Below the pieces are notes generated by a model, which did no database searches, was not told the DNA's origin, and saw only the letters and a program-made list of their open reading frames with translations. From NCBI RefSeq assembly GCF_024494725.1, contig NZ_JANHDK010000003.1, positions 124,001 through 188,000 on the forward strand: a DNA stretch of 64,000 bases. Reading direction: 5' to 3'. The stretch comes from Haloplanus ruber (GTDB lineage Archaea > Halobacteriota > Halobacteria > Halobacteriales > Haloferacaceae). A program made the position numbers and the translations under genes. Below, in pieces: positions 3,849 to 20,194 of this stretch. Positions within the stretch are counted from its first letter, which is position 1; each line of letters opens with the position of its first letter.

Positions 3849-4277
3849 ATGACGGTGGTCAGCGTCTCGATGCCCGAGGAACTGGTAGAGCGGATCGACG
3901 CCTTCGCGGACGAACACGGCTACACCGGGCGGAGCGAGGTCGTTCGCGACGCCTCCCGGTCGCTCCTCGGTGAGTTCGAGGACAAGCGACTGGAGAACCG
4001 CGACCTCATGGCCGTCGTGACAGTCATCTTCGACTACGAGACCACGAACGTCGAGGAGCGGATGATGGGACTCCGACACGACTACGAGGGACTCGTCGCC
4101 GCCAACTTCCACAGCCACGTCGGCTCCCACCACTGCATGGAGCTGTTCGTCCTCGAAGGGCGTCTGGAGGCCATCTCTACTTTCGTCGGCAAGATCCGGG
4201 CGACCCAGGACACCCTCAGCGTCGACTACTCCGTGATGCCAGTCGACGAGTTCGGCCCCGTGGCATCCCCGGAGTGA
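3849..4277 (+). CDS. nikR: Nickel-responsive regulator NikR
   Basis: A 142-residue protein with an N-terminal ribbon-helix-helix DNA-binding domain (about 1-45, starting [12 protein letters not shown]) and a C-terminal ACT-like nickel-binding domain. The high-affinity nickel ligands of E. coli NikR (H76, H87, H89, C95) have exact counterparts at H77, H88, H90 and C96. It should repress target genes when nickel is plentiful. No nickel importer is visible in the window, but the [NiFe]-hydrogenase operon begins 4.4 kb downstream and is a natural nickel-linked target. That regulatory link is inference; I could not identify a NikR operator. Confidence 0.93.
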
Positions 4278-6427: not shown

Positions 6428-7303
6428 ATGGGCCGTGACCTCCGGGACCGGATCGCCGACCAGTTCTCCGGCCGCGGCGAACGGGCCGACATCTGGCGCG
6501 GATTCGACCGCCTGTTCGACACCGACGCCTTCCTCAACCTCGGCTACTCCCCGTGGTATCTCCCCCACGCCGTCGGGTCGAGTCAGTCGCGCCTCGCCGA
6601 TCAACTCGGCGCCCGACTCACCGCCGCACTCCCGGCGACCGACGGCGTCCGCCTCCTCGACCTCGGCTGTGGGCGCGGTGGCCCCGCCGCCCGCCTCGCC
6701 AAGCGGTTCGGCTTCGACGTGGTCGGCGTCGACCTCGTCCCCTACAACGCCCGCCAGGCGACCGACACGGCCCAGTCGGCCGGCGTCGACGCGACGTTCG
6801 TCGTCGGCGACGCGACCCGACTCCCGCTTGCCACCGACGCGGTCCCCGCCTGCGTCGCGGCCGACGCGGTCGTCTACGTCCCCGACACCGCCGCCGTCTT
6901 CGCCGAACTGCGGCGCGTTCTCGAACCCGGGGGCGTCCTCGTCTGCTCCGATCTCGTGACGCGAGCCGACGACGCCGACGCCCGCCGCACGGTCGATGCC
7001 TTCGCCGACGCGTGGGACATGCCGCCGTTGCTTGCCGCCGACGAGTACGAACGTGTCGTCACAGCACACCTCGACGTCCACCGATTCGAGGACATCACGG
7101 CACACAGCGTCGGCCGATTTCGGACGTGGACCGCGCTGTACCTGCGACTGGTGGCCCTACTCGGCGGGCGTCCGCTCGCCGCTGCCCTCCGGCGCCTGGG
7201 TCTCGACCCGACGGCCGTCACCGAGCGGATCCGCCGGGCCCACGACGCCCTCCCGCATCTCCGGCACGTCGTGGTCGTCGCGCGGCGAGGCGCGGATCGA
7301 TGA
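6428..7303 (+). CDS. Class I SAM-dependent methyltransferase
   Basis: A 291-residue protein with the Rossmann methyltransferase signature. Motif I is LLDLGCGRGG near residue 76, followed by VVGVDLVPYN and a DATRLP segment. The post-core region LRRVLEPGGVLVCSDLV is typical of enzymes acting on small molecules or lipids. The substrate cannot be named. It starts directly on the stop of the Cys-rich gene and ends in an ATGA overlap with a possible alternative start (7300) of the following nuclease, which points to one transcript from 5296 or 6056 to 8568. Confidence 0.88.
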   Translation: MGRDLRDRIADQFSGRGERADIWRGFDRLFDTDAFLNLGYSPWYLPHAVGSSQSRLADQLGARLTAALPATDGVRLLDLGCGRGGPAARLAKRFGFDVVGVDLVPYNARQATDTAQSAGVDATFVVGDATRLPLATDAVPACVAADAVVYVPDTAAVFAELRRVLEPGGVLVCSDLVTRADDADARRTVDAFADAWDMPPLLAADEYERVVTAHLDVHRFEDITAHSVGRFRTWTALYLRLVALLGGRPLAAALRRLGLDPTAVTERIRRAHDALPHLRHVVVVARRGADR

Positions 7304-7335
7304 ACCCAACACTGACCGCCGTCTACGCTCCGTCG

Positions 7336-8568
7336 ATGGACATCCGGTTTCTGGGCGGCGCTCACGAGGTCGGTCGGAGCGCCATCCTCGTGAACGACGC
7401 CCTCCTTCTCGATTTCGGGATGCTGACGGGCAACCCGCCGCGGTTCCCGGTCGAGACACCGGAGCCCGATGCGGTCGTCGTCAGCCACGGACACCTCGAC
7501 CACGTGGGTGCGATTCCGTCGTTGCTCTCCGGCGACAATCGACCGCCGATTCACTGGACGCCACCGACGTACGAACTCGCACTCACGCTCGCGCGTGACA
7601 CGCTGAAGCTCCACGGCGGCACGTACCACTGTCCGTTCACGGAGAACGACGTCAAGCGCGTCACGGAAACCTCGCAAACACACGGCTACCGGGAGACGTT
7701 CGCGGCGGCGGGCCACGAGGTCACGTTTCACAACGCCGGCCACATTCCCGGCAGCGCCCACGTCACCGTCGACGACGGCGACACCCGCCTGCTCTACACC
7801 GGCGACTTCCACACCGACGACCAACGACTCGTCTCGGGGACGACCGCACGACCCGACGCGGACGTCGTCGTCTGTGAGAGCACCTACGCCGACGTCGACC
7901 ACGACGACCGGGCGGCCGTCGAAAAGCAGTTCGCACAGAGCGTCAAGACGACGCTCTGGGAGGGCGGAACGGTCGTCATTCCGGCCTTTGCCATCGGGCG
8001 CACCCAGGAGATGATGCTCGTCTGTGCGGCGCACGACATCCCGTGTTACGTCGACGGCATGGGCAAGCAAGTCACCGAGATGCTCCGACAGTATCCCGCG
8101 TTCGTCCGGGACGCCGACGCGTTTCGGCGTGCGGCGTCGCACGCTCGATTCGTCACCGGCCGCGACGGACAGCGCAAGCGCATCACCGACCAGAGCGCCG
8201 CGATCATCACCACCAGCGGCATGCTGTCCGGTGGCCCCGCGATGACCTATATCCCCGCAATTCGGTCGAACCCGGTGAACAAGGTCACGATGACCGGCTA
8301 TCAGGTCGAGGGAACTCCCGGGCGAAACCTCGTCGAGTCGGGGCGTGCCGAAATCGACGGCCGCGTCATGCCCGTGAGTGCACAGGTCGAACAGTACGAC
8401 TTTTCGGCACACGCGGACCGGCGTGGCCTCCGTGCGTTTCTCGATTCGTACCACGACACACCGATCCTGATCAACCACGGTGACCGCTGTGAGACGTTCG
8501 CCGCCGAACTCGCCGACGATGGTGCCGACGCGACGGCGCCCGCCGTCGGCGACGAACTCTCCGTCTGA
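7336..8568 (+). CDS. Metallo-beta-lactamase/beta-CASP RNA-processing nuclease
   Basis: A 410-residue protein of the CPSF/RNase J superfamily. The zinc motif SHGHLDHVG is near residue 50. The later metal-binding segments NAGHIPGSAH and YTGDFHTDD are present. The beta-CASP signatures follow: TSGMLSGGPA and FSAHADRRGL. In archaea such proteins are 5'-3' exonucleases or 3'-end processing factors. This one lacks KH domains, so it is the short type. The start is set at the ATG 7336 (MDIRFLGGAHEVG). An ATG at 7300 would add 12 residues and overlap the methyltransferase stop, and remains possible. Confidence 0.9.
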   Translation: MDIRFLGGAHEVGRSAILVNDALLLDFGMLTGNPPRFPVETPEPDAVVVSHGHLDHVGAIPSLLSGDNRPPIHWTPPTYELALTLARDTLKLHGGTYHCPFTENDVKRVTETSQTHGYRETFAAAGHEVTFHNAGHIPGSAHVTVDDGDTRLLYTGDFHTDDQRLVSGTTARPDADVVVCESTYADVDHDDRAAVEKQFAQSVKTTLWEGGTVVIPAFAIGRTQEMMLVCAAHDIPCYVDGMGKQVTEMLRQYPAFVRDADAFRRAASHARFVTGRDGQRKRITDQSAAIITTSGMLSGGPAMTYIPAIRSNPVNKVTMTGYQVEGTPGRNLVESGRAEIDGRVMPVSAQVEQYDFSAHADRRGLRAFLDSYHDTPILINHGDRCETFAAELADDGADATAPAVGDELSV

Positions 8569-8632
8569 GCGTCGGGACGGGCCGGTGTCGGCTCGTGGCC
8601 GTTGTTTTCACTCCGCTGTAATTGCTGTGTGG

Positions 8633-8639
8633 TTTAACA
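8633..8639 (+). promoter_or_regulatory. TATA box of the hydrogenase operon
   Basis: TTTAACA lies 25-31 bases before the ATG at 8664 in the only sizeable gap (95 bases) before the eleven-gene hydrogenase run. The position fits a TATA box for a short-leader transcript. No internal gap in the run is longer than 8 bases, so this is probably the operon's main promoter. Confidence 0.5.
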
Positions 8640-8663
8640 TGCATCATCTTTCCATAGGGGGAT

Positions 8664-9887
8664 ATGACCCAGTCGGGAACATCGAACGGCGGTGGCGGCG
8701 GGACGTTGCGCCGGAACTTCCTGAAACTCGTCGGCGGTGCCGCGGCCGGATCGGTCATGACACGGTACAGTTCGGACGTCGCCGCGGCGCTGGATCGGGC
8801 GACCAACGGCTCGAAGGAGGTCGTCTGGCTCCAGGGACAGACCTGTTCTGCGTGTACGATGTCGACGCTTCAGGGCACGTCACCGAGTCTCGAGGAGGCA
8901 ATCACGGAGTTCAAACTGGATGTCACCTACCACCCGGAGTTGATGGCGGAGACGGGCCAGGCGGCAATCGATGCGATGAGCGACTCGCCGGACATCCTGA
9001 TGATCGAAGGCGCCATCCCGACCAAGATTCCCTCCGCGGCGACGTTCGGACGGGACGAACGTGGTCGGCGCAAACCCATCGTCGACTGGGTGAAAGAACT
9101 CGCCCCCGAGGCGGAGTACGTGATGGGTATCGGCACGTGTGCCTGTTACGGCGGGTGGCAATCCGCCGAAAACGGTGCGCCGGCCGTCATGGACGACCCG
9201 GAGGACGGACCGTGGATGGACCCCAACGTCACCGGGGCCAAGGGCGTCCAGTTCACCCATCAAGAGGGCGACCAGGGCGTTCTCGGCCCCGACTTCACCT
9301 CGAACGCGGGGCTGCCGGTCATCAACGTCCCGGGGTGTATGACCCACCCCGACTACGTGCTGTTGACGGTGGCGACGCTGCTGAACGGACACACGCCCGA
9401 GTTAGACGAGTACAACCGGCCGGAGGCGTTCTACGGCCCGCTGGTTCACGATCAGTGTTCGCGCCGGGGCTACTTCGACCGCGGCGAGTTCGTCGACCAC
9501 GTCGGCGAGGACTCTGAAAAGTGTCTCTACACCGTCGGCTGCAAGGGACCGTACTGCCACTGTGACGACTCGGTTCGGCTCTGGAACGACGGGACGAGCG
9601 TCTGTCGGAACGTCGGCGCGCCGTGTATCGGCTGTATGGAACCGGGATTCTGGGACAACATGACGCCGTTCTACGAACCCATCGAGCAGCAGGGTCTCGC
9701 GATGACCGACATCGAGACGGCGGGGCTCACGGCCGTCGGGGCCACCGTCGCCGGCATCGGCGCCCACGCCGTCCGCAAGGCGACGGGCTACGGCGACACC
9801 GACGACGCCGCGGCCGAGGGCGACCCCGGGGCCGACACCCACGACTGTGACTGTGACGACTGTGACTGCCGGAGCACGGAGGACTGA
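8664..9887 (+). CDS. hyaA: [NiFe]-hydrogenase small subunit (Tat exported)
   Basis: A 407-residue electron-transfer subunit. A twin-arginine signal (RRNFLK, R16-R17) directs the folded enzyme across the membrane, so the active site faces outside. Iron-sulfur ligands are visible: proximal cluster C61, C64, C159, C225; distal cluster H262, C265, C287, C293; medial cluster around C298/C300, C321 and C324 (PCIGC). The proximal site has the ordinary four cysteines, not the six of classic oxygen-tolerant enzymes, although an extra C161 lies next to it. After a weak C-terminal hydrophobic segment (about 352-370) the protein ends in an unusual Cys/Asp tail (C395, C397, C400, C402). It is followed three bases later by the large subunit. 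Confidence 0.95.
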   Translation: MTQSGTSNGGGGGTLRRNFLKLVGGAAAGSVMTRYSSDVAAALDRATNGSKEVVWLQGQTCSACTMSTLQGTSPSLEEAITEFKLDVTYHPELMAETGQAAIDAMSDSPDILMIEGAIPTKIPSAATFGRDERGRRKPIVDWVKELAPEAEYVMGIGTCACYGGWQSAENGAPAVMDDPEDGPWMDPNVTGAKGVQFTHQEGDQGVLGPDFTSNAGLPVINVPGCMTHPDYVLLTVATLLNGHTPELDEYNRPEAFYGPLVHDQCSRRGYFDRGEFVDHVGEDSEKCLYTVGCKGPYCHCDDSVRLWNDGTSVCRNVGAPCIGCMEPGFWDNMTPFYEPIEQQGLAMTDIETAGLTAVGATVAGIGAHAVRKATGYGDTDDAAAEGDPGADTHDCDCDDCDCRSTED

Positions 9888-9890
9888 CCG

Positions 9891-11456
9891 ATGCCAGAGA
9901 TTGAAATCGATCCGACGACGCGCATCGAGGGTCACCACAGCACGACCCTGAACGTGGAGAACGGCGAGGTGACGGAGGCGAAAAGCCACATGGACATGTT
10001 CCGTGGCATGGAACTAGTCGTGTTGAACCGGCCGCCGTCCGACGCGCCGGTGTTCACACAGCGGGTGTGTGGGGTCTGCTTTTCGGTCCACCGACAGACG
10101 TCGCTGCTCGCCATCGAGAACGCGGCCCGGAACGCGGGCGTGTTCGACGGTATTCCGGAGACCGCTCGGAAGATGCGCAACCTCCTCGAGAGCATGGCGA
10201 CGCTGTGGAATCACGCGGTCCACATGTTCGCGCTCGTGGGACCGGATTACAGCGACGCTGTCGCCGACACGGGGTTGACGCGCCTCGATCCGATGGAAGG
10301 CGAGGGATACACGGCCGCCCTAGAGGCACAGCGAAAACTGCTCCAGGGCTTCGCCGAGTTCGGTGGGAAAGCGCCCCACCCTCTGACGTACGCGCCCGGC
10401 GGCATGTCGGCCAACCCCACTATCGAGAAACTCCAACAGATCCGCGACCAGGTGGCGTTTGTCAGCGAGTGGCTCGGCCCGACCGACGCCGTGCCTGACG
10501 TCGTCGAGAACGTCCGCAACGGCGAGTTCGACGACTCGCTCGGCGCGGGACTGCACGACATCGTCTCCATCCTCCTGGCCGCCAAGGAGGCCGGCGCCGA
10601 CGACTTCGGCGTCGGTCCCGGCCGGTACTACTGCAACGGCATCTATCCCGACGCGAACGGCGAGGACAAGATTCCGGCGGGAATCTACGTCGACGGCGAA
10701 CTCTCTCACCCGAGCGACGCGGAGATCAAGGAGGCCATCACCGAGAGCACGGCACGGTCGTGGTACACCGACGACTCCGGCGGGTCGCCGATGGAGGCGT
10801 CCCCGCCCAAACCCGACCCGGACAAGGCCGACGCGTACTCGTGGGGGAAAGCCCCGCGGTACGACGGCATGAACATGGAGACGGGATCGCTGGCGCGCCT
10901 GATCGTCACCGAGCGTGACCCGTTCGACCTGCGGGCGACGCTCGGCGGCGACCCCACGAAAAGCAGCACGCTCAACCGCCTGATCGCGCGGGCACAGGAG
11001 GCCCTGCTCCTCCGCGATCAGATCCTCGACATCCTCGACGACATCGACCCCAACGGGACGGTCAACGTCGGCTGGAGCGACGACTTCAGCGGCGAAGGCG
11101 TCGGCCTCTGGGAGGCGTCTCGCGGTGCGCTCTCCCACTGGGTGAAAGTCGAAGACGGCACCATCACCAACTACCAGATCATTACGCCGACGCTCTGGAA
11201 TCTCGGCCCACGCGACGAGTCGGGAACGCCGAGCATCTTCGAGACGGCCGTCGAGGGGATGGCGGTCGAAGACGTGGAGAACCCGATCAACGTCATGCGA
11301 ACGGTGCGGTCGTTCGACCCGTGTCTGGCGTGTTCGGTCCACGTCGAGAGTCCCGAGGCAAGCTACACCGAGGAGATCACCCCGGCGTCGCCGGGCGGCG
11401 CGATGACCGGCGTCGGCGACACCCCCGTCGCCGGTGAGGAGGTCGACGAGCCGTGA
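9891..11456 (+). CDS. hyaB: [NiFe]-hydrogenase large (catalytic) subunit
   Basis: A 521-residue subunit that binds the Ni-Fe(CN)2CO centre and oxidises H2. The N-terminal ligand motif is RVCGVCFSVH (C60, C63). The C-terminal motif is DPCLACSVH (C478, C481). Maturation proteases cut after the His (H484), here releasing about 37 residues, clearly longer than the usual 15 or so. It has no signal peptide and should ride out with the small subunit through the Tat system. Its TGA overlaps the GTG start of the cytochrome b gene (GTGA). The motifs place it among membrane-bound group 1 enzymes; the subgroup needs a phylogeny. Confidence 0.96.
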   Translation: MPEIEIDPTTRIEGHHSTTLNVENGEVTEAKSHMDMFRGMELVVLNRPPSDAPVFTQRVCGVCFSVHRQTSLLAIENAARNAGVFDGIPETARKMRNLLESMATLWNHAVHMFALVGPDYSDAVADTGLTRLDPMEGEGYTAALEAQRKLLQGFAEFGGKAPHPLTYAPGGMSANPTIEKLQQIRDQVAFVSEWLGPTDAVPDVVENVRNGEFDDSLGAGLHDIVSILLAAKEAGADDFGVGPGRYYCNGIYPDANGEDKIPAGIYVDGELSHPSDAEIKEAITESTARSWYTDDSGGSPMEASPPKPDPDKADAYSWGKAPRYDGMNMETGSLARLIVTERDPFDLRATLGGDPTKSSTLNRLIARAQEALLLRDQILDILDDIDPNGTVNVGWSDDFSGEGVGLWEASRGALSHWVKVEDGTITNYQIITPTLWNLGPRDESGTPSIFETAVEGMAVEDVENPINVMRTVRSFDPCLACSVHVESPEASYTEEITPASPGGAMTGVGDTPVAGEEVDEP

Positions 11457-12289
11457 CCGCCTCCGAATCCGGATCGGGTACGGGCGCCGACGACGCGGCG
11501 TCGCTCCGCCGACGGGCCGGGGCGCTCGTCCGCGCGGCGCTCGCGTCGCCCGAGGAGGCCGACGACCGGTACCGGCGCGTGCAGGCGCTGAAAGGGCGTG
11601 TCACGGTCGAACGCCACAGCCTGGGCGCGCGAATCTCCCACTGGGTGCAGGCGTTTCTGATGTTCGTCCTGATGGCCACCGGCTACGCCATCTGGACGGG
11701 CACGTACGGCCCGCTCAACGTCGTCCCGTGGGACGGCTACTACCTCGCGTTCGGCCTCCACCTCTGGGCGGGGATTCTCCTGCTGTCCGTTTTCTTCGTC
11801 CTCTTTCCGCTGTATCACGTCTACGTCGACGGCCACCGCCAACTGGCCGAACTGACCGACATCCGCGTCGCCGTCCGGGTCGGTCAGGCCTTTGTCGGTC
11901 TCAAGTCGTATATCCCGGGCTATCACGCGGCTCGGCAGACCTACGACGAGACGGACGGCGACTGGGTGGCCTACCACCCTATGCAGAAGACGTTCTTCTG
12001 GTGGGTGTCCATCCTGTTCGGCGTCCTCGCGCTGACCGGGTTCGGGATGTACGCGGAGATGCGCACCGACCCCGCCTGGTGGATCGAGCTTCTGGGCGTG
12101 CTGGACGGGTACGTCGGCTTCGTGGTGTTGAAACAGATCCACCTGCTGGTGTTTTTCCTCATCGTCGCGATGATCGTCGGCCACGTCTACTTCGCGGTGT
12201 TGCCGAGCAACCGGGCGACGCTTCGGTCGATGGTGTTCGGCGACATGGAGGCGTACGTCCTTGGGGGTGAGGATGACGACGAGCAGTGA
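11453..12289 (+). CDS. hyaC: Hydrogenase cytochrome b membrane subunit
   Basis: A 278-residue protein that should anchor the hydrogenase and pass electrons to the quinone pool. It has a charged 55-residue N-terminal extension and then four membrane helices (about 64-82, 98-121, 180-200, 222-248). Candidate haem ligands are H63, H103, H230 and H244. The layout fits the Ni/Fe-hydrogenase b-type cytochrome family. It starts with GTG in a four-base overlap with the large subunit. Its 3' end overlaps the maturation protease gene by 17 bases, so translation of the three is probably coupled. Confidence 0.9.
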   Translation: MTASESGSGTGADDAASLRRRAGALVRAALASPEEADDRYRRVQALKGRVTVERHSLGARISHWVQAFLMFVLMATGYAIWTGTYGPLNVVPWDGYYLAFGLHLWAGILLLSVFFVLFPLYHVYVDGHRQLAELTDIRVAVRVGQAFVGLKSYIPGYHAARQTYDETDGDWVAYHPMQKTFFWWVSILFGVLALTGFGMYAEMRTDPAWWIELLGVLDGYVGFVVLKQIHLLVFFLIVAMIVGHVYFAVLPSNRATLRSMVFGDMEAYVLGGEDDDEQ

Positions 12290-12761
12290 GCCGGCGCGGG
12301 CGTCGACGGACGCGACACAGGCCGTCGTCGGCGTCGGGAGTATGGTCATGCGCGACGACGGCGTCGGCTATCACGCCGTCGAACGCCTCCACGAGCGGTC
12401 GCTGCCAGCGGGCGTAACAGCGACCCACGCCGGGACGACGGCCTTCCTGGCGCTGGAGGCGATGAGCGGAACGGATCGGGCAATCGTGGTCGACGCCCTC
12501 GCGCTGGACGACGAGCCGGGAACGGTTCGTGCGTTCCGCCTCGACGATCCGGCCACGGAGCCTCCGGAGGTAACGATGCACGACTTCAGCTTCAGCGACG
12601 CGCTCAGCGTCGGTGACGCCGCCTACGACCTGCCCGACCGGGTGTCGCTCGTCGGCGTCGTCCCCGCCCGACTCGAACCCGGGGTCGAACTCTCGGACCC
12701 CGTCGCGGCGGCGCTCCCCGACCTGGTGTCGCTGATCGAATCACGACTCACGTCAGCATGA
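12273..12761 (+). CDS. hyaD: Hydrogenase maturation protease
   Basis: A 162-residue endopeptidase of the HyaD/HybD/HycI family, which checks nickel insertion and clips the large subunit C-terminus. The family signature is GVGSMVMRDDGVG (residues 20-32). The probable nickel-sensing ligands corresponding to HybD E16, D62 and H93 are D29, D74 and H103. The ATG at 12273 is chosen because GGGGTGAGG precedes it and it begins at the expected distance from the motif; the frame also has a GTG at 12267 and a TTG at 12261. It overlaps the cytochrome b gene and shares ATGA with the small gene that follows. Confidence 0.9.
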   Translation: MTTSSEPARASTDATQAVVGVGSMVMRDDGVGYHAVERLHERSLPAGVTATHAGTTAFLALEAMSGTDRAIVVDALALDDEPGTVRAFRLDDPATEPPEVTMHDFSFSDALSVGDAAYDLPDRVSLVGVVPARLEPGVELSDPVAAALPDLVSLIESRLTSA

Positions 12762-12934
12762 ACGGACACTGGTACTGCACCGACTGCGAGGAACGGATCG
12801 ACAAGGACAGCATCGACGACCACGAGGCGCGCGGTCACCACGTCAAGGGGCATTTCCGTCCCGACCGCCTGCTACCGGGCGATCCCGAACTCCTCGGCGC
12901 GGAGGTCGGACGCGGCGACGGGGGTGGGCGCTGA
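12758..12934 (+). CDS. 58-residue C2H2-like zinc-finger protein in the hydrogenase operon
   Basis: A small gene whose ATG overlaps the protease stop (ATGA) and whose TGA overlaps the hypC start (TGATG). This tight embedding argues strongly that it is translated. The protein carries C7-X2-C10-X11-H22-X4-H27, close to classic C2H2 zinc-finger spacing, with another His at 28, followed by a Pro/Gly-rich acidic tail. I know no hydrogenase accessory protein of this form. Possible roles, all inference, are nickel or zinc handling, a chaperone for the protease or the large subunit, or regulation of the operon. It is too short to be confident about the fold. Confidence 0.75.
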   Translation: MNGHWYCTDCEERIDKDSIDDHEARGHHVKGHFRPDRLLPGDPELLGAEVGRGDGGGR

Positions 12935-13269
12935 TGTGTCTCGGCGTCCCCGGGGAGATTCGCGAGATCGACGGCACCGAGGCGGTTGCCGACTTCTGGG
13001 GTGTCGAACGCCGCGTCCGACTCGACGTGGTCGGCGACGCCGTCGAGGTCGGCGACTACATCCTCAATCACGCCGGCTTCGCCATCCGGAAGATCCCCGA
13101 ACGCGAGGTCGAGGAGACGATGGCCATCTACGAGTCGCTCTTTGGCGACGACGTCGACGAGGCGCTCGACGAGATCGGTGCCCCCCGCGGCGCCGACATC
13201 GACCTCGGCGGGGAGCAGGGCGACGCGGAGGCGGACGCGGCGGTTCCGGGTGATACCGATGGCGACTGA
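12934..13269 (+). CDS. hypC: Hydrogenase assembly chaperone HypC
   Basis: A 111-residue protein beginning MCLGVPGEI, the invariant HypC start whose Cys2 binds the Fe(CN)2CO fragment and escorts it from HypD to the large subunit. The core is normal for about the first 85 residues. The remainder is an acidic Ala/Gly/Asp tail longer than usual for the family, perhaps a halophilic extension. It overlaps the small zinc-finger gene by one base and hypD by 11 bases. Confidence 0.95.
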   Translation: MCLGVPGEIREIDGTEAVADFWGVERRVRLDVVGDAVEVGDYILNHAGFAIRKIPEREVEETMAIYESLFGDDVDEALDEIGAPRGADIDLGGEQGDAEADAAVPGDTDGD

Positions 13270-14368
13270 GGCCGACGACCTGAAGTTCCGCGATCCGGAG
13301 GCGGCCCAGGAACTCGCCGCCGACATCGAGCGGCAGATGGAGCGCATCGACCACCCGGTCGAGATCATGCACGTCTGTGGGAGTCACGAACAGGTCATCG
13401 CCAAGTTCGGCCTGCGGAGCATGCTCCCGTCCGATCTGTCGGTGACGATGGGACCGGGCTGTCCGGTGTGTGTGACGAACATGCCGGAGGTCGACGAGGC
13501 GGTGGCGCTGGCCGAAGCCGGCACGACCGTCGCGACCTACGGCGATATGTTTCGGGTGCCGGGAACCGTCAAGAGCCTCGCGGACGCCAAAGCCGAGGGG
13601 GCAGCGGTCGAAGTCGTCTACAGCGCGAGCGAGGCGGTCGAGTACGCGGCCGCCCACCCCGACGAGGACGTGGTCTTTTTCGCTACTGGCTTCGAGACGA
13701 CCGCCGCCCCCACCGCGGCCGTCCTCCAGGCCGATCCCCCGGAGAACTTCTACGTCCTCTCGGCGCACAAGTACGTCCCGCCCGCGATGGAGGTGGTCGC
13801 GGAGATGCCCGACACCGACGTCGACGCCTTTCTCGCCGCGGGACACGCCGCGACGATCACGGGCTACGGCCTCTTCGAGGAGTTCGTCGACGAGTACGAC
13901 ACCCCGGTCGTCGTCGGAGGGTTCGAACCGCTCGACGTGCTCTACGGCGTCCGGCGCATCCTGGAGTTCGTCGAGTCGGGGACGAGCGGCCTCGACAACG
14001 CCTATCCCCGGTGTGTCTCGCGTGACGGCAACGAGGCGGCGATGAGCGCTATCGACGAGGTGTTCGCGCTGACCTCGGGTGAGTGGCGCGGCATCGCCGA
14101 CATCCCGGACGCCAACTTCGTCCTCCGGGAGGCGTACGCCGCACACAGCGCCCGCCGGCAGTTCGACGTCGACCCCGTCTCGGGCGATGGCGACCCGCTC
14201 ACCGAGGAGTGTATCTGTGGCGACATCATGGCTGGCACCGCCACGCCGGAGGACTGTGCCCTGTTCGGCGAGGAGTGTACGCCACAGAATCCGGTCGGCG
14301 CCTGTATGGTCTCCGACGAGGGCACCTGCAAGATCCGACACGAGTACGGGGGCCATCCGGAGCTATGA
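13259..14368 (+). CDS. hypD: Hydrogenase maturation protein HypD
   Basis: A 369-residue Fe-S protein that with HypC carries the iron to which CO and cyanide are added. Conserved signatures are HVCGSHEQ near residue 38, GPGCPVCVTN near residue 64, and a C-terminal [4Fe-4S] cysteine set that includes ECICGDIM, EDCALFG and GACMVSD. The ATG at 13259 gives MATEADDLKFRDPE and overlaps hypC by 11 bases; the frame is open further upstream only inside hypC. It ends in an ATGA overlap with hypE. Confidence 0.95.
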   Translation: MATEADDLKFRDPEAAQELAADIERQMERIDHPVEIMHVCGSHEQVIAKFGLRSMLPSDLSVTMGPGCPVCVTNMPEVDEAVALAEAGTTVATYGDMFRVPGTVKSLADAKAEGAAVEVVYSASEAVEYAAAHPDEDVVFFATGFETTAAPTAAVLQADPPENFYVLSAHKYVPPAMEVVAEMPDTDVDAFLAAGHAATITGYGLFEEFVDEYDTPVVVGGFEPLDVLYGVRRILEFVESGTSGLDNAYPRCVSRDGNEAAMSAIDEVFALTSGEWRGIADIPDANFVLREAYAAHSARRQFDVDPVSGDGDPLTEECICGDIMAGTATPEDCALFGEECTPQNPVGACMVSDEGTCKIRHEYGGHPEL

Positions 14369-15405
14369 GCGACGACGCCCGCGACGAGGAGACGGTCACC
14401 GTCGCACACGGTGGCGGCACGGGACGAACCCGTGACTTCCTCGAAGACAGCGTTGTCCCGCGGTTTGGCGGCGACGCGGACGGACTCGCGGTCGGCCTCG
14501 ACGCCCTCGACGACGGCGCGGTTCACGAGGTGGGTGACCGGTCGGTGGTCGTTACGACCGACAGCCACGTGGTCTCGCCGCTCTCCTTCCCGGGGGGTGA
14601 CATCGGGCGCCTGGCCGTCTCGGGGACGGTCAACGACCTCGCGGTCATGGGCGCGACGGAGCCGCTCTCGCTGACCTGCTCGCTCGTCGTCGAGGAGGGC
14701 GTCTCCGTCGGGTTGCTGGAGGACGTTCTTGATTCGATGCAGGCCGCGTGCGAGGCGGCGGGCTGTGCGGTTACGACCGGCGACACGAAGGTGATGGGTA
14801 GCGGCGACGTCGACGGCGTCGTGATCAACACGACCGGCGTCGGTGTCCTGCCACAGGGGGCGCACGTCCCCGACGCCGGTCTCTCGCCCGGCGACAAACT
14901 CGTCGTCTCCGGCCCGGTCGGTGATCACGGCATCACGCTTCTGGCCGAGCGCGAGGGGTTCGACATCGAGGGCGATCTGACGAGCGACGTCGCGCCGGTC
15001 AACGACCTCGTCGCGGCCGCCCTCGACGCCGGCACCGTCACCGCCATGACGGACCCGACGCGTGGCGGCCTCTCGACGGCGCTCAACGAGATGGCCCGGA
15101 AAGCCGACGTCGGTGCCCTCGTCGACGAGACGGCCGTGCCGGTGCGCGACTCGGTCGCCGCTACCGGCGAACTCCTGGGGATCGACCCGTTCGACGTGGC
15201 AAACGAGGGGACGGTCGTCTTCGGCGTCGACGCCGCCACCGCCGACGCCGTCGTCGACGCACTCCGAGCCACGCCGCTCGGCGCGGAGGCCGCCGTCGTC
15301 GGCGAGGCCGTCACAGAGCACACCGGGCGGGTCGTCCTCGACACCGGCTTCGGGCGCCGCTATCTGAGCGAACCGGAGGGCGAACAGTTGCCGCGGATCT
15401 GTTGA
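14365..15405 (+). CDS. hypE: Hydrogenase maturation protein HypE
   Basis: A 346-residue enzyme that dehydrates a thiocarbamoyl group to thiocyanate, the source of the cyanide ligands. The N-terminal AHGGGTGR segment and the central TGDTKVM nucleotide-binding region match the AIR-synthase-like fold. The protein ends in PRIC; the terminal Cys346 is the residue that HypF carbamoylates. It overlaps hypD by four bases and is followed two bases later by hypA. Confidence 0.95.
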   Translation: MSDDARDEETVTVAHGGGTGRTRDFLEDSVVPRFGGDADGLAVGLDALDDGAVHEVGDRSVVVTTDSHVVSPLSFPGGDIGRLAVSGTVNDLAVMGATEPLSLTCSLVVEEGVSVGLLEDVLDSMQAACEAAGCAVTTGDTKVMGSGDVDGVVINTTGVGVLPQGAHVPDAGLSPGDKLVVSGPVGDHGITLLAEREGFDIEGDLTSDVAPVNDLVAAALDAGTVTAMTDPTRGGLSTALNEMARKADVGALVDETAVPVRDSVAATGELLGIDPFDVANEGTVVFGVDAATADAVVDALRATPLGAEAAVVGEAVTEHTGRVVLDTGFGRRYLSEPEGEQLPRIC

Positions 15406-15407
15406 CG

Positions 15408-15806
15408 ATGCACGAACTCAGCGTGGCGGAGGCGTTGCTCGACCACGCCGCCGCGGCGGCCGCCGACCACGACGCCGCCAGCGTCGAGGCCATCACGGTC
15501 GAACTCGGGGCGGCGACGCACGTCAACCCGACGCAGTTGCGGTTCTGCATCGAGACTGTCGCCGAGGCGACCTTCGACGCCGACCTCACCGTCCATATCG
15601 ACCCCGTCGATCCGCGAGCGACCTGCGAGTGTGGTTGGGCTGGCGACCCCCCGTCGTTCGAGGGCACCGCCGCGGTGGTGCCGACAGCGCGCTGTCCGGA
15701 GTGTGGCGGCCCGACGGAGTTCACCCGCGGAATGGAGTGTCGTCTGGCGAGTGTCACCGTCCCCGACACGCCGGCGGCGGCCAACGCGACCGACACGGAG
15801 GACTAA
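15408..15806 (+). CDS. hypA: Nickel insertion protein HypA
   Basis: A 132-residue nickel chaperone. It begins MHELSVAEAL; the MHE start includes the His2 nickel ligand. The zinc site is formed by CECGW and CPECGG, the second pair 24 residues after the first, followed by a short acidic tail. The ATG at 15408 is fixed by the conserved MHE. It works with HypB to place nickel in the large subunit, and hypB follows after three bases. Confidence 0.95.
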   Translation: MHELSVAEALLDHAAAAAADHDAASVEAITVELGAATHVNPTQLRFCIETVAEATFDADLTVHIDPVDPRATCECGWAGDPPSFEGTAAVVPTARCPECGGPTEFTRGMECRLASVTVPDTPAAANATDTED

Positions 15807-15809
15807 CAT

Positions 15810-16631
15810 ATGAAACCTGTTCACGCACACTCGACGCACTGTCCGCCAATCGACCACCTGCTCGCGGCCCTGTTCGGACGCCGTGAGGCGTCGCCTGTCG
15901 CCCGCACTCACCGATTCGGACACGACGACGCGGCCGAGACGGCGACGGGCGACGACGTGCTTGCGGAGTTTCGCGCACAGGCGCGGGACCTGCACGAACG
16001 ACTCGTCCACGAGCACGGCGTCTTCGTCGCCGAGTTCCTCGGGGCGACCGGGAGCGGCAAGACCACCCTCGTCGAGCGCCTCATCGAGCGGGCACCGGCC
16101 GACGAACGGATCGGCGTCATCGTCGGCGACGTGGCCGGCGACGACGACGCGAGCCGCTACCGAGACCACGGTGTCGCCGTCACGAACGTCACCACCGGCA
16201 AGGAGTGTCACCTCGATCCGGGCCTGATCGAGGACGCCCTCGCCGACTTCGACCTCCACGCGCTGGACACGCTCTACGTCGAAAACGTCGGCAACATGGT
16301 CTGTCCCGCGGACTTCCCGCTCGGTGCCCAACTTCGCGTCCTCGTCGTGAGCACGACCGAGGGCGACGACGTGGTGCGCAAACACCCACTGCTCTTCCAG
16401 GCCTGCGACGCCGCGGTCGTGAACAAGGCAGACCTCGCGGACGCGGTGGGCGCCGACATCGACCGGATGGCCGCCGACGTCGCGGACGTGGCTCCGGGGT
16501 TGGACCTGTTCCGCACCAGCGCCCGCGACGGCGACGGGGTCGAACCGCTGGCGTCCTTCCTCGATGGGGTTCGCGCCGACGGTCACGACCACCACGGCCA
16601 CCGCCACGGCGCAGACGAACACCTGGGGTGA
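15810..16631 (+). CDS. hypB: Nickel-handling GTPase HypB
   Basis: A 273-residue SIMIBI GTPase. Walker A is GATGSGKT (residues 78-85), the base-recognition motif is NKAD, and the metal-binding GKECH segment at the dimer interface is present. The histidine-rich nickel-storage region sits at the C-terminus (HDHHGHRHGADEH), not in the N-terminal stretch where bacterial HypB usually carries it. The N-terminus itself has scattered His and Cys residues. The gene lies three bases after hypA and two bases before hypF. Confidence 0.95.
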   Translation: MKPVHAHSTHCPPIDHLLAALFGRREASPVARTHRFGHDDAAETATGDDVLAEFRAQARDLHERLVHEHGVFVAEFLGATGSGKTTLVERLIERAPADERIGVIVGDVAGDDDASRYRDHGVAVTNVTTGKECHLDPGLIEDALADFDLHALDTLYVENVGNMVCPADFPLGAQLRVLVVSTTEGDDVVRKHPLLFQACDAAVVNKADLADAVGADIDRMAADVADVAPGLDLFRTSARDGDGVEPLASFLDGVRADGHDHHGHRHGADEHLG

Positions 16632-16633
16632 GG

Positions 16634-18937
16634 ATGTCCGCCGAACGCCGTGCCACCGTTCGCGTCTCCGGTGTCGTTCAGGGCGTCGGATTTCGCCCGT
16701 TCGTCTACCGAACCGCCGTCGACGCCGGCGTCACGGGCTACGTCCGCAACGCCGGCGGCGTCGTCGAGGCTGCCTTCGAGGGGACACAGGCCGACGTCGA
16801 GCGTGTCGTTACGGCGATCCGAACGGACGCACCGCCGCTGGCGTCGGTCGACGCGGTCGACGTCTCCTGGGGTGTGCCACGCGGCACCGAATCCTTCGAG
16901 ATTCGGGACTCGACCGCGGGACCGGGAGAGGCGCTCGATACGCCGGTGCCGCCGGATACGGGGGTCTGTGACGCGTGTCTCTCGGAGATGCGGGACCCCG
17001 ACTCCCGCTATCACGGCTACTGGGCGACGGCCTGTGTCGACTGCGGCCCGCGGTTCACCGTCGTTAGGGACGTCCCCTACGACCGATCCCGGACGGCGAT
17101 GGACGACTTCCCGATGTGTGCGGCCTGTCGGGAGTCCTACGAGACGCCGACCGACCGCCGCTACCACGGGCAGGCCATCGCCTGCCCCGACTGCGGGCCG
17201 ACGCTGCGCTTCGAGGTCGACGGCCGGACCGTCTCGCGTGGCCACGACGCGCTCGGTGCCGTCGCCGACGGCCTCGCCGACGGCGAGGTGCTCGCGGTCA
17301 AGGGAATCGGCGGCGTCCACCTCGTCTGTGACGCGACCGATCCGGCGGCGGTCGACCGCCTCCGCTCGCGCACGGGCCGACCCGCCAAACCCTTCGCCTG
17401 TATGGCCCCCTCTCTCGACGCCGTCGCGTCGTTCGCCCGCGTCGGCGACGCCGAGCGGGCGGCCCTGCGGGACGTTCGGCGACCGATCGTCCTTCTCGAC
17501 CGGACGGCCGAGGCGGACTGGCTGGACGCCGTCGCGCCGGGGCTGTCGACGGTGGGCGTCATGCTCCCGTACGCCGGCCTGCATCACCGTATCTTCGATC
17601 ACGTCGACGGGCCACTGGTCGCCACGAGCGCCAACATGCCCGGAGGGCCGATGTGTACGACCGCCGCGGCGGTCCGGTCCCGTTTGGACGGGGTCGTCGA
17701 CGGGGGACTCTTTCACGACCGCGATATCGTCGCTCGGTGTGACGACAGCGTGCTCCAGGTCGTCGACGGCGCCACGCGGTTCGTCAGGCGCTCCCGTGGC
17801 TGGACGCCGCGCGCGCTTCCGAACCCCGTGGCCGGCGACGGCTCTCCTGTGCTGGCGGTCGGCCCGGAGCGAGACGCGACCGTCGCGCTCGCCGAGGGTG
17901 ACCGCGTCGTCCTCTCCCAACACCTCGGCGACGTGACCGGCCCGGACACGACGGCGTTCCACCGCGAGGCCGTCGCCCACCTGCGCGACCTCACCGGCAT
18001 CGACCCGGCTGTGGTCGCCCGTGACCGCCATCCCGACTTCCAGACGACGGCGGAGGCGGAACGGTACGCTAGCCAGGGCATGGACGGTCCCGTCGCCGTC
18101 CAGCACCACCACGCACACGCCGCGGGCCTGTGCGCCGAACATGGCGTCGAGCGGGCCATCGTCGTCGCCGCCGACGGGACGGGATACGGTCCGGACGGGA
18201 CCGTCTGGGGTGGCGAAGTGCTCGATGTCACCTACCAGGGATACGAGCGGATCGGCGGTCTCTCGCCGTTCACTCTGCCGGGCGGCGAGGCGGCCGTCGA
18301 GTATCCGGCGCGAATCCTCGCGGCTCTGCTCGCCGACCCGGACCGCATCGACGAGCGCCTCGTCGCGACGGACGCCGTCGACTCGCCGTCCGACGCCGCG
18401 GTGGTCAGACGGCAAGCCGCCGGCGACGTGAACGCGCCGACGACCACGAGCGCCGGTCGGTATCTCGATGCGGTCGGTGCCCTCCTAGACGTCTGTGATC
18501 GGCGGACGTACGAGGGCGAACCGGCACAGCGGCTTGAGGCGACGGCGACCGATGGGGACGCCCACGCGGTGTCTCTCCCGTTCGATACCCAGGCGGGGCG
18601 TCGCGTGCTCGATACGCACGCGCTCGTCGGAACGCTCGCCGAGCTAACGGGTGAGCTGTCGGTCGCCGATATCGCCGCGACGGCACAGGACACACTCGCC
18701 CGCGGACTCGCGGACATCGCGATTGAGGCCGCCGACGAACGCAGTGTCGACGCCGTCGGCTTCACCGGCGGCGTCGCCTACAACGACGCCATCTCGCGAC
18801 GGTTCCGCGCGTGCGTCACGGACGCGGGCCACACCGTTCTCGCCCCGGACGCCGTTCCACCGGGTGACGGCGGGGTTGCGTACGGACAGGCCATCGTGGC
18901 GCTCGCCCGCCGGCGCGACGGAGCCGTCGACCGCTGA
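16634..18937 (+). CDS. hypF: Carbamoyltransferase HypF
   Basis: A 767-residue protein that transfers a carbamoyl group from carbamoyl phosphate to HypE for cyanide synthesis. Domains in order: acylphosphatase-like (VQGVGFRPFVYR, about 10-95), two zinc-finger units built from CDAC/CVDC and CAAC/CPDC pairs, a YrdC-like domain, and a Kae1-like domain with HHHAHAA. The length is normal. The ATG at 16634 precedes the acylphosphatase domain directly; the open frame reaches further into hypB but without coding sense. It closes the hydrogenase run and converges on the regulator at 18981. Confidence 0.95.
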   Translation: MSAERRATVRVSGVVQGVGFRPFVYRTAVDAGVTGYVRNAGGVVEAAFEGTQADVERVVTAIRTDAPPLASVDAVDVSWGVPRGTESFEIRDSTAGPGEALDTPVPPDTGVCDACLSEMRDPDSRYHGYWATACVDCGPRFTVVRDVPYDRSRTAMDDFPMCAACRESYETPTDRRYHGQAIACPDCGPTLRFEVDGRTVSRGHDALGAVADGLADGEVLAVKGIGGVHLVCDATDPAAVDRLRSRTGRPAKPFACMAPSLDAVASFARVGDAERAALRDVRRPIVLLDRTAEADWLDAVAPGLSTVGVMLPYAGLHHRIFDHVDGPLVATSANMPGGPMCTTAAAVRSRLDGVVDGGLFHDRDIVARCDDSVLQVVDGATRFVRRSRGWTPRALPNPVAGDGSPVLAVGPERDATVALAEGDRVVLSQHLGDVTGPDTTAFHREAVAHLRDLTGIDPAVVARDRHPDFQTTAEAERYASQGMDGPVAVQHHHAHAAGLCAEHGVERAIVVAADGTGYGPDGTVWGGEVLDVTYQGYERIGGLSPFTLPGGEAAVEYPARILAALLADPDRIDERLVATDAVDSPSDAAVVRRQAAGDVNAPTTTSAGRYLDAVGALLDVCDRRTYEGEPAQRLEATATDGDAHAVSLPFDTQAGRRVLDTHALVGTLAELTGELSVADIAATAQDTLARGLADIAIEAADERSVDAVGFTGGVAYNDAISRRFRACVTDAGHTVLAPDAVPPGDGGVAYGQAIVALARRRDGAVDR

Positions 18938-18980
18938 CGACGCCGGAGTCGGCCGTCTGTGGGCGACGCCGCCCGCCGAA

Positions 18981-19787
18981 TCACTCCGCCGTGTCCACGA
19001 CTTCGTAGTTGATATTGCCGTCCCGGAGGCGATCTAGGTGCGTCGAGAGTTCGTCCGCGGCGGCGAGCAACAGGACGTCCAGCCCGCGGGCGGCGGCCGC
19101 CCCGACGGCCGCCGGCGTCCCGAAGCGCACGTCGGGGTCGAGGTCGGCCGCTAGCGCCGCCGCGTACGCCTCGGTCCCCGCCGTCGCGACCAGGTCCGCG
19201 TCGGCAGCGTGGCCGGCGAACGTCGCCGTCTCCACCGCCGCGCTCCCGCCGTCCTGTACCCGCGGGATCGAGACGGCGGTCACGCGCCCGAGGTCGTAAT
19301 CGAGGACGCCCTCGAAGTCGGTGACGCCCACGTCCCGCCCCGGATCGGCGCTCGTGACCGCAACCGCGGTTGTGCTCCCGGTCGCGCCGGGGGTTGCCCG
19401 GAGGACGCCGTCGCGCATCGACAGCGAGACGGCCTCGCCCTCCATAATGGGCGCCGTGGCGAGTGCGGTCTCGATCTCGACTTGCCCGATCACGTCCTCG
19501 GCGACGTGGCCGACGAACTCCCGGAGTTCGTCCGTCCGGCCGATGAGCCAGTCGACGCCCTCTTTGGTCACCTCGTACCGTCCGCGTCCCGGACTCCGGA
19601 CGTAGCCCTCCTCGATGAGTCCCTGGAGGTAGTCGCTCACCGCCTGTGCGGTGATGCCGATGTCGTCAGCGATCTCCCGCTGACTGACGGCCGGCTGTCG
19701 CTCCGCGATTCCGACCAGGATCTGATACCGGGTCGCAGCGCGCTTGCTCCGCAGGACGCCCGCCTCGCGGTCGGCGCTCTCTTCCAT
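18981..19787 (-). CDS. Winged-helix transcriptional regulator
   Basis: A 268-residue protein with an N-terminal MarR/IclR-like winged helix (about residues 12-85, including QREIADDIGITAQAVSDYLQ) and a C-terminal alpha/beta domain of unknown ligand. The haloarchaeal family is recognisable by this layout, but I know no function. The ATG at 19787 starts just before the helix-turn-helix; 70 upstream codons in the same frame lack the acidic haloarchaeal composition. It is convergent with hypF, 43 bases apart, so proximity alone is weak evidence for control of the hydrogenase. Confidence 0.85.
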   Translation of the reverse strand: MEESADREAGVLRSKRAATRYQILVGIAERQPAVSQREIADDIGITAQAVSDYLQGLIEEGYVRSPGRGRYEVTKEGVDWLIGRTDELREFVGHVAEDVIGQVEIETALATAPIMEGEAVSLSMRDGVLRATPGATGSTTAVAVTSADPGRDVGVTDFEGVLDYDLGRVTAVSIPRVQDGGSAAVETATFAGHAADADLVATAGTEAYAAALAADLDPDVRFGTPAAVGAAAARGLDVLLLAAADELSTHLDRLRDGNINYEVVDTAE

Positions 19788-19903
19788 CGTCGTCTTTCCG
19801 CCCGCGTTCGTCAAGTACTTTTTCCCTAGTCCGGGCGTAGTTGTGGTTTTCGCGCCGATACGGCAAGACAGCTTTGCTCGGCGCAGATCCACTTGTGCGG
19901 AGA

Positions 19904-20194
19904 TCAACCACGCCTGCCGTCCTCCTCGTACCGACGAACCTCGAATTCGGCGTAGCCGCCGTACGCGACATCGAGTGCGCCGACCCACCAGTTCCACCGC
20001 TCGGCGAGCGACGAGCCTTCGGGGGCGTCGGCGAGTTCCGCGACGAGCGTCTCGGTAGCCAGCGGCGTCCCCCGGTCGGCCGCCAGACGGCCGGCGTCCG
20101 TCAGGTCACGGGCCGCCCGGACCACCGCCCGACGCTCTCCCGCGTCGGCGTCGAAGGCGTCGGCGAGCGCGGCGTCGAGGCGGTTCTCGTCCAC
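19904..20194 (-). CDS. Small acidic protein coupled to the metalloprotease
   Basis: A 96-residue protein starting VDENRLDAALADAF, with mostly helical acidic sequence and a WNWWVGALDVAYGGYAEF segment near the C-terminus. I do not recognise it. The GTG start at 20194 shares one base with the TAG stop of the upstream protease gene (TAGTG), which suggests translational coupling and a related function, for example a partner or immunity-type protein. GTGs a few codons upstream are possible alternative starts. Confidence 0.65.
   Translation of the reverse strand: MDENRLDAALADAFDADAGERRAVVRAARDLTDAGRLAADRGTPLATETLVAELADAPEGSSLAERWNWWVGALDVAYGGYAEFEVRRYEEDGRRG

Follow-up and report, generated by a model that had tools for sequence, protein, structure and literature searches.

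The use of H2 by haloarchaea was first shown in Halodesulfurarchaeum formicicum HTSR1, a strict anaerobe that respires sulfur, thiosulfate or dimethyl sulfoxide (DMSO); strain HSR6 shares the HTSR1 hydrogenase cluster, yet does not use H2 (PMC5437934). In 2018, H2-dependent growth with sulfur was reported for Natrarchaeobaculum, in which hydABC lie next to hydD and hypA-F on a plasmid, and the cluster was described as a 'compact complete suite ... suitable for lateral gene transfer' (PMC6176080). A 2024 study pointed out divergent clades within group 1, Halobacteriota among them (PMC11018855). Here we analyze a 64,000-nucleotide stretch of the Haloplanus ruber genome (contig NZ_JANHDK010000003.1, positions 124,001 to 188,000 of the forward strand; hereafter 'the window'), which contains an eleven-gene [NiFe]-hydrogenase operon at 8664-18937. 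It is very probable, judging from the sequence, that this operon encodes a respiratory H2-uptake module belonging to the haloarchaeal group 1 clade and that it was acquired as one block; a link to O2 is the likeliest one, at about even odds. The initial annotation had held that most haloarchaea have no known hydrogenase, which needs correction: such enzymes have been described since 2017-2018 (PMC6176080, PMC5437934), and 40 of 392 genomes (about 10%), from 21 of the 95 genera of the order, carry a PF00374 hydrogenase. Its main points, including the self-contained cluster and the idea of lateral transfer, were already known for the family from those papers. The enzyme type and the self-contained module are therefore already known in haloarchaea, and the window adds a further member; new here are the proof of an empty site, a mosaic history of the hyp genes, a linked zinc-finger gene, a Cys-rich tail in one sub-clade and a pattern of aerobic hosts.

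The H. ruber genome (3.28 Mb in 9 contigs, 99.7% complete) has a single PF00374 large subunit; among the control genomes, Haloferax volcanii gave no PF00374 match. All eleven open reading frames (ORFs) of the operon lie on the plus strand, and neighboring frames overlap by 1-17 nt or stand 2-3 nt apart, as expected from the eleven co-directional genes with gaps of at most 8 bases first noticed. The structural genes come first: hydA (8664-9887) encodes a small subunit of 407 amino acids with a twin-arginine translocation (Tat) signal, RRNFLK, Fe-S ligands, a C-terminal anchor helix and a Cys-rich tail (residues 395-402), and hydB (9891-11456) a large subunit of 521 amino acids. They are followed by genes for the b-type cytochrome HydC (PF01292; 11453-12289), the 162-amino-acid HyaD/HybD-type maturation endopeptidase HydD (12273-12761), a conserved zinc-finger-like protein (12758-12934), the chaperone HypC (12934-13269), HypD (13259-14368), HypE (14365-15405), the nickel metallochaperone HypA (15408-15806, with an alternative TTG start at 15402), the GTPase HypB (15810-16631), which ends in a His-rich C-terminus, DGHDHHGHRHGADEH, and the carbamoyltransferase HypF (16628-18937; 769 amino acids). 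Family matches in Pfam and NCBIfam are strong for the structural genes (NiFe_hyd_SSU_C, 1e-29; NiFeSe_Hases, 3.4e-87; Ni_hydr_CYTB, 1.5e-16; HycI protease, 2.4e-19) and for HypE (9.6e-108), and HypC, HypD, HypA, HypB and HypF all score far above the cut-off. These matches, the Tat signal and the active-site motifs bear out the Tat-exported hydrogenase, cytochrome b, protease and HypABCDEF of the initial annotation, which had correctly counted eleven genes but named only ten proteins; the eleventh is the zinc-finger ORF. The arrangement is not due to chance, since the full gene order recurs in relatives. A scan for sigma-70 promoters and terminators is uninformative for archaea.

Both active-site motifs of HydB are intact (L1, RVCGVCxxxH; L2, DPCLACSVH), and L2 is followed by a C-terminal extension of 37 amino acids, so that the substrate of the protease is encoded beside the protease gene. 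We aligned HydA with 26 other small subunits. Four Cys (61, 64, 159 and 225) form its proximal site, and a His and three Cys its distal site; at the medial site, a Cys stands in place of the usual Pro of HyaA and HoxK, giving four Cys, and for this reason a [4Fe-4S] cluster is predicted. The window protein has neither of the two extra proximal Cys found in E. coli HyaA and C. necator HoxK and does not show the six-Cys [4Fe-3S] pattern of group 1d. An extra Cys in the motif GTCAC (C161) was considered as a mark of O2 tolerance and rejected, since a standard enzyme of the Desulfovibrio type (1e3d) has it as well. In the C-terminal part, the segment ETAGLTAVGATVAGIGAHAVRKA lines up with the E. 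coli HyaA membrane anchor. Beyond this helix comes the tail CDCDDCDC (window 9846-9869), predicted from the topology to be cytoplasmic; relatives read CGCGSDCAC and similar. Four Cys are present here in most of the sub-clade of the window, with only the first pair in Natronomonas and no tail in the aligned Halovenus. The pattern CxCx2-3CxC is seen in six further loci (L003, L004, L006, L009, L010 and L011). It is absent from Natrarchaeobaculum and from most other haloarchaeal small subunits aligned, and partial in genome G248; we found no known counterpart. In HydC, four conserved His in transmembrane segments (SHW, LHxWAG, QIHL and GHVYF) are as expected for two b-haems; by family and by these His, HydC is the type of cytochrome b that partners quinone-linked enzymes, and it is predicted to reduce quinone.

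The best solved-structure match of HydA is 7utd, 'Hydrogenase-2', which we take to be Huc of M. smegmatis. Kinship with this atmospheric-H2 enzyme was considered on that account and is not supported: the proximal CxxC is standard, and the best matches of HydB are other group 1 enzymes.

The large-subunit tree was built with reference enzymes of groups 1c, 1d and 2b and of Vht-like and Archaeoglobi-like types; it holds no confirmed 1a or 1g member, and groups 3 and 4 were left out. All 32 haloarchaeal rows form one clade (Shimodaira-Hasegawa-like approximate likelihood ratio test (SH-aLRT) 100) adjoining family f21 (95), which Sorokin's tree and its kinship suggest to be Archaeoglobi; Sorokin et al. 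likewise recovered a deep archaeal cluster (PMC6176080). The 1c and 1d enzymes (E. coli HyaB/HybC, C. necator HoxG) and the methanogen Vht enzymes fall elsewhere among group 1, and 2b falls outside. By its motifs, cleavable C-terminus, tree placement, Tat motif, three Fe-S sites and cytochrome b, the window enzyme is a group 1 membrane-bound respiratory uptake hydrogenase. With hydABC, hydD and hypA-F adjacent and its HydB in the haloarchaeal clade, the locus belongs to the haloarchaeal HydABCD-Hyp modules. Families, tree and small-subunit alignment likewise support the earlier proposal of a quinone-linked, outward-facing group 1 type with its own maturation set, placed within group 1 beside archaeal enzymes. 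A genome scan retrieved nine haloarchaeal loci at 74-90% identity, from Halonotius aquaticus, Halorussus halobius, Halohasta salina, two Halovenus, Natronomonas, Halobiforma haloterrestris and two Salinibaculum. Together with Halonotius, Halohasta and Halorussus, the window makes up a set of four rows (support 97; bootstrap 99, SH-aLRT 98) that mixes Haloferacaceae and Haladaptataceae. The haloarchaeal host initially proposed is supported too, and its own family includes H. aquaticus and H. salina.

The closest described system is that of Natrarchaeobaculum sulfurireducens AArc1 (plasmid pAArc1-02) and strain AArc-Mg, with an identical order of eleven genes, a group 1 enzyme, a cytochrome b and the same self-contained layout; pAArc1-02 even has an unnamed small gene between the protease gene and hypC (L079, 15077-15307), as in the window. 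Identity to the window is 62% for the large subunit, 59% for the small subunit and 43% for cytochrome b. Unlike the window, this cluster is plasmid-borne, its host respires sulfur and its small subunit has no Cys-rich tail. The HTSR1 enzyme resembles that of the window by description, as a haloarchaeal group 1 HydABC. E. coli Hyd-1 and the C. necator membrane-bound hydrogenase (MBH), both 1d, share with the window the Tat signal and C-terminal anchor of the small subunit, a large subunit, a cytochrome b and a HyaD-type protease, and in the case of MBH also hyp genes nearby. The window enzyme differs from them in its proximal and medial Cys, as described above, and is only 27-28% identical in the large subunit; furthermore, no accessory genes of the HyaE/HyaF or HoxO/Q/R/T types were seen in its operon. 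The Archaeoglobi-like group 1 enzymes of family f21 are the nearest non-haloarchaeal relatives in the tree, with the same medial four-Cys set and about 40% identity; zinc-finger and hyp genes were not found in the two flanking stretches examined.

To see how the operon arrived, we compared the locus with 11 other species of the genus. It lies between a beta-CASP/RMMBL metallo-beta-lactamase-fold nuclease gene (6988-8568, plus strand; region aligned, exact start unsure) and a gene for a helix-turn-helix/DUF7839 regulator-like protein (18981-19997, minus strand). In six congeners these two genes stand tail-to-tail with spacings of 6 bp (G711), 15 bp (G708), 12 bp (G707), 42 bp (G709), 27 bp (G710) and 49 bp (G257). 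The junction in G711 reads ...CACCGTCTGA followed directly by TCACTCCGCCGTG..., which is the left end of the window site (8568) joined without a break to its right end (18981); the flanks align colinearly at 86-89% on both sides. The block at 8569-18980 was therefore inserted as one piece: 10,412 bp comprising the operon with 95 bp before it and 43 bp after it, a segment that the congeners do not have here. Among the remaining congeners, the flanks are separated by other DNA in G293 and cut by a contig end in G712. The nuclease gene is inverted in three (G370, G367 and G713; loci L124, L125 and L126), so that this intergenic spot appears prone to rearrangement. Deviant GC content was tried as a mark of foreign origin and rejected: that of the insert (68.9%) lies within the range of the flanks (68.4-71.2%). 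No flanking genes adjoining the operon are shared among relatives, the USP/DUF5806 block near the Halonotius and G248 operons lying on the other side, in a position that is not orthologous. Large-subunit identity to the Halonotius, Halohasta and Halorussus genomes reaches 83-90%, against 75-81% for aconitase. Transfer between haloarchaea is the simplest reading, with the empty site observed directly and another haloarchaeon as the putative donor of a single 10.4-kb horizontal insertion.

We may also ask whether the operon is ancestral, came down vertically within the genus and later disappeared from the congeners, so that their flanks became adjacent. Such a history would equally explain sporadic presence, and it fits the lack of insertion marks: no transposase, integrase or target-site duplication was seen at the insert ends, where the best shared direct repeat, of 9 bp, is at chance level (8.5% of shuffles). 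However, it requires loss at the site in all 11 congeners, several of them clean to 6-49 bp, including the nearest (96% identical on the neighboring regulator), whose site is empty; the large-subunit tree places the window with Halorussus, of another family, and congener G370 has a different hydrogenase instead. We regard vertical inheritance with loss as very improbable. Little more can be said for a decayed or cryptic locus, with intact genes that are not expressed or assembled. Haloarchaeal hydrogenases are little studied, and the failure of HSR6 to use H2 is a precedent, but the eleven frames and the catalytic motifs are all unbroken and are conserved in relatives, and the tight overlaps have been kept; we therefore consider this improbable as well.

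The harder choice concerns the electron sink. The hydrogenase may serve anaerobically only, like those of Natrarchaeobaculum and Halodesulfurarchaeum, feeding sulfur, DMSO, nitrate, nitric oxide or Fe(III), and be silent or inactive in air; this is a serious possibility, at somewhat less than an even chance. The sister enzyme supports anaerobic growth on H2 and sulfur, was assigned to group 1a by HydDB and was called O2-sensitive (PMC6176080), and Natrarchaeobaculum has PF00384 enzymes. The host has four COX1-family proteins, including an aa3-type oxidase; by length and N-terminus, two of the four look like quinol-dependent NO reductases. Its four PF00384 proteins, in contrast, are an assimilatory NasA and three formate dehydrogenase-like enzymes, with no Psr, Dms, Nar or Ttr type as best match in the lists, and three members of the clade (H. 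aquaticus, H. halobius and Halovenus aranensis) have no PF00384 match in their genomes. This shortage of recognizable DMSO, nitrate or sulfur reductases in the host and several relatives favors aerobic H2 oxidation. Halonotius itself is described as an aerobic heterotroph, and a genome analysis of the genus reported no evidence of chemolithotrophy (PMC6719526); the H. aquaticus locus (L003) nevertheless holds a full hydrogenase operon. Besides the O2 sensitivity of the sister enzyme, several points weigh against O2 as acceptor. The four-Cys proximal site sits badly with it; Natronomonas, Halobiforma and Halohasta have further molybdenum enzymes, one of those in Halohasta being TtrA-like; the hydrogenase could be coupled differently through formate dehydrogenase-like enzymes; and anaerobic growth with DMSO and arginine has been reported, apparently for H. 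aquaticus on our reading of a table column, though its genome yielded no PF00384 protein. On balance, coupling of H2 oxidation to O2 in the host has about an even chance of being right.

If H2 uptake is indeed respiratory, the family functions suggest how the module would work. HypF and HypE would make the cyanide ligands, HypC and HypD would build the Fe(CN)2CO unit, and HypA and HypB would insert nickel; HydD would then trim the large subunit, and the folded HydAB dimer would be exported by Tat and dock on HydC through the C-terminal helix of the small subunit. Hydrogen would be oxidized at the outer face, with electrons passing through the proximal, medial and distal clusters and the two b-haems to the menaquinone pool. 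The quinol would most likely be oxidized by haem-copper oxidases, for lithoheterotrophic energy or for survival. More speculatively, the sub-clade may have passed horizontally between aerobic haloarchaea as a block of 10 kb and may couple H2 oxidation to O2 without the known tolerance Cys, by different protection or wiring, perhaps through the four-Cys medial cluster and the cytoplasmic CxCx2-3CxC tail, and dependent on the new zinc-finger maturation protein; in this full form we hold the idea to be doubtful.

That the system is self-contained and was acquired as a unit, as initially proposed, holds for this locus, but the module does not always travel whole. We compared large-subunit, hypD and hypE trees for ten close relatives. 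Their large subunits form a clade, which hypD rejects (approximately unbiased test, p = 9e-5) and hypE speaks against (p = 0.016). Halovenus and Natronomonas carry different hypD and hypE genes, and in G010 a hydrogenase of only 37% identity is accompanied by hypD and hypE nested within this cassette. The module is therefore not indivisible, and its maturation block can be swapped independently of the structural genes.

The zinc-finger ORF encodes 58 amino acids with the pattern W-x-C-x2-C-x11-H-x4-H, matching no family at the cut-off. Sixteen homologues share W5, C7, C10, H22 and H27 and a P-[DE]-R-L-L motif. In a profile search of 384 genomes of the order, 25 strong matches were obtained (E < 1e-22), all in hydrogenase-bearing genomes and none outside them; the gene is present in 25 of the 27 genomes with this hydrogenase clade, missing only from G143 and G319. 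The protein model is a hairpin-helix finger predicted with modest confidence (mean pLDDT 67). A search for a known fold gave no PDB match at E <= 0.001, and the best Pfam hits, zf_UBZ and Zn_Ribbon_TF, are weak. Position and co-occurrence suggest that this protein is probably a dedicated maturation helper.

Other hydrogenases were seen during the survey. Nine haloarchaeal loci, including those of G143, G319 and G248, carry a second type, in which a cytochrome b homologue was not found beside the large subunit; the small-subunit C-terminus also differs in the three aligned (G109b, G248 and G348). A third, very divergent large subunit (identity near 29%, reading frames roughly 700 amino acids long) occurs at three loci (L099, L046 and L047), the first in congener G370, which does not have the window's operon at the insertion site. 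Weaker PF00374 proteins of about 440-550 amino acids, several per genome, were found in nine genomes and are possibly group 3-type hydrogenases. Within the window, a NikR-type nickel-responsive regulator (NikR_C, 1.1e-20; 3849-4277, plus strand) is encoded 4.4 kb upstream of hydA, beyond the edge of the insert, and could control nickel supply.

The precise empty site makes this locus a clear case in which an entire energy module of many genes was acquired in a single event, and the zinc-finger gene linked to it is a candidate maturation factor that has received no study so far. In the literature we found, H2 use by haloarchaea is shown only with anaerobic, sulfur-type respiration; the present operon and its close relatives, including that of H. 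aquaticus, sit in genomes where O2 is often the only evident respiratory sink. Aerobic or trace-H2 oxidation in brines is thus a directly testable idea.

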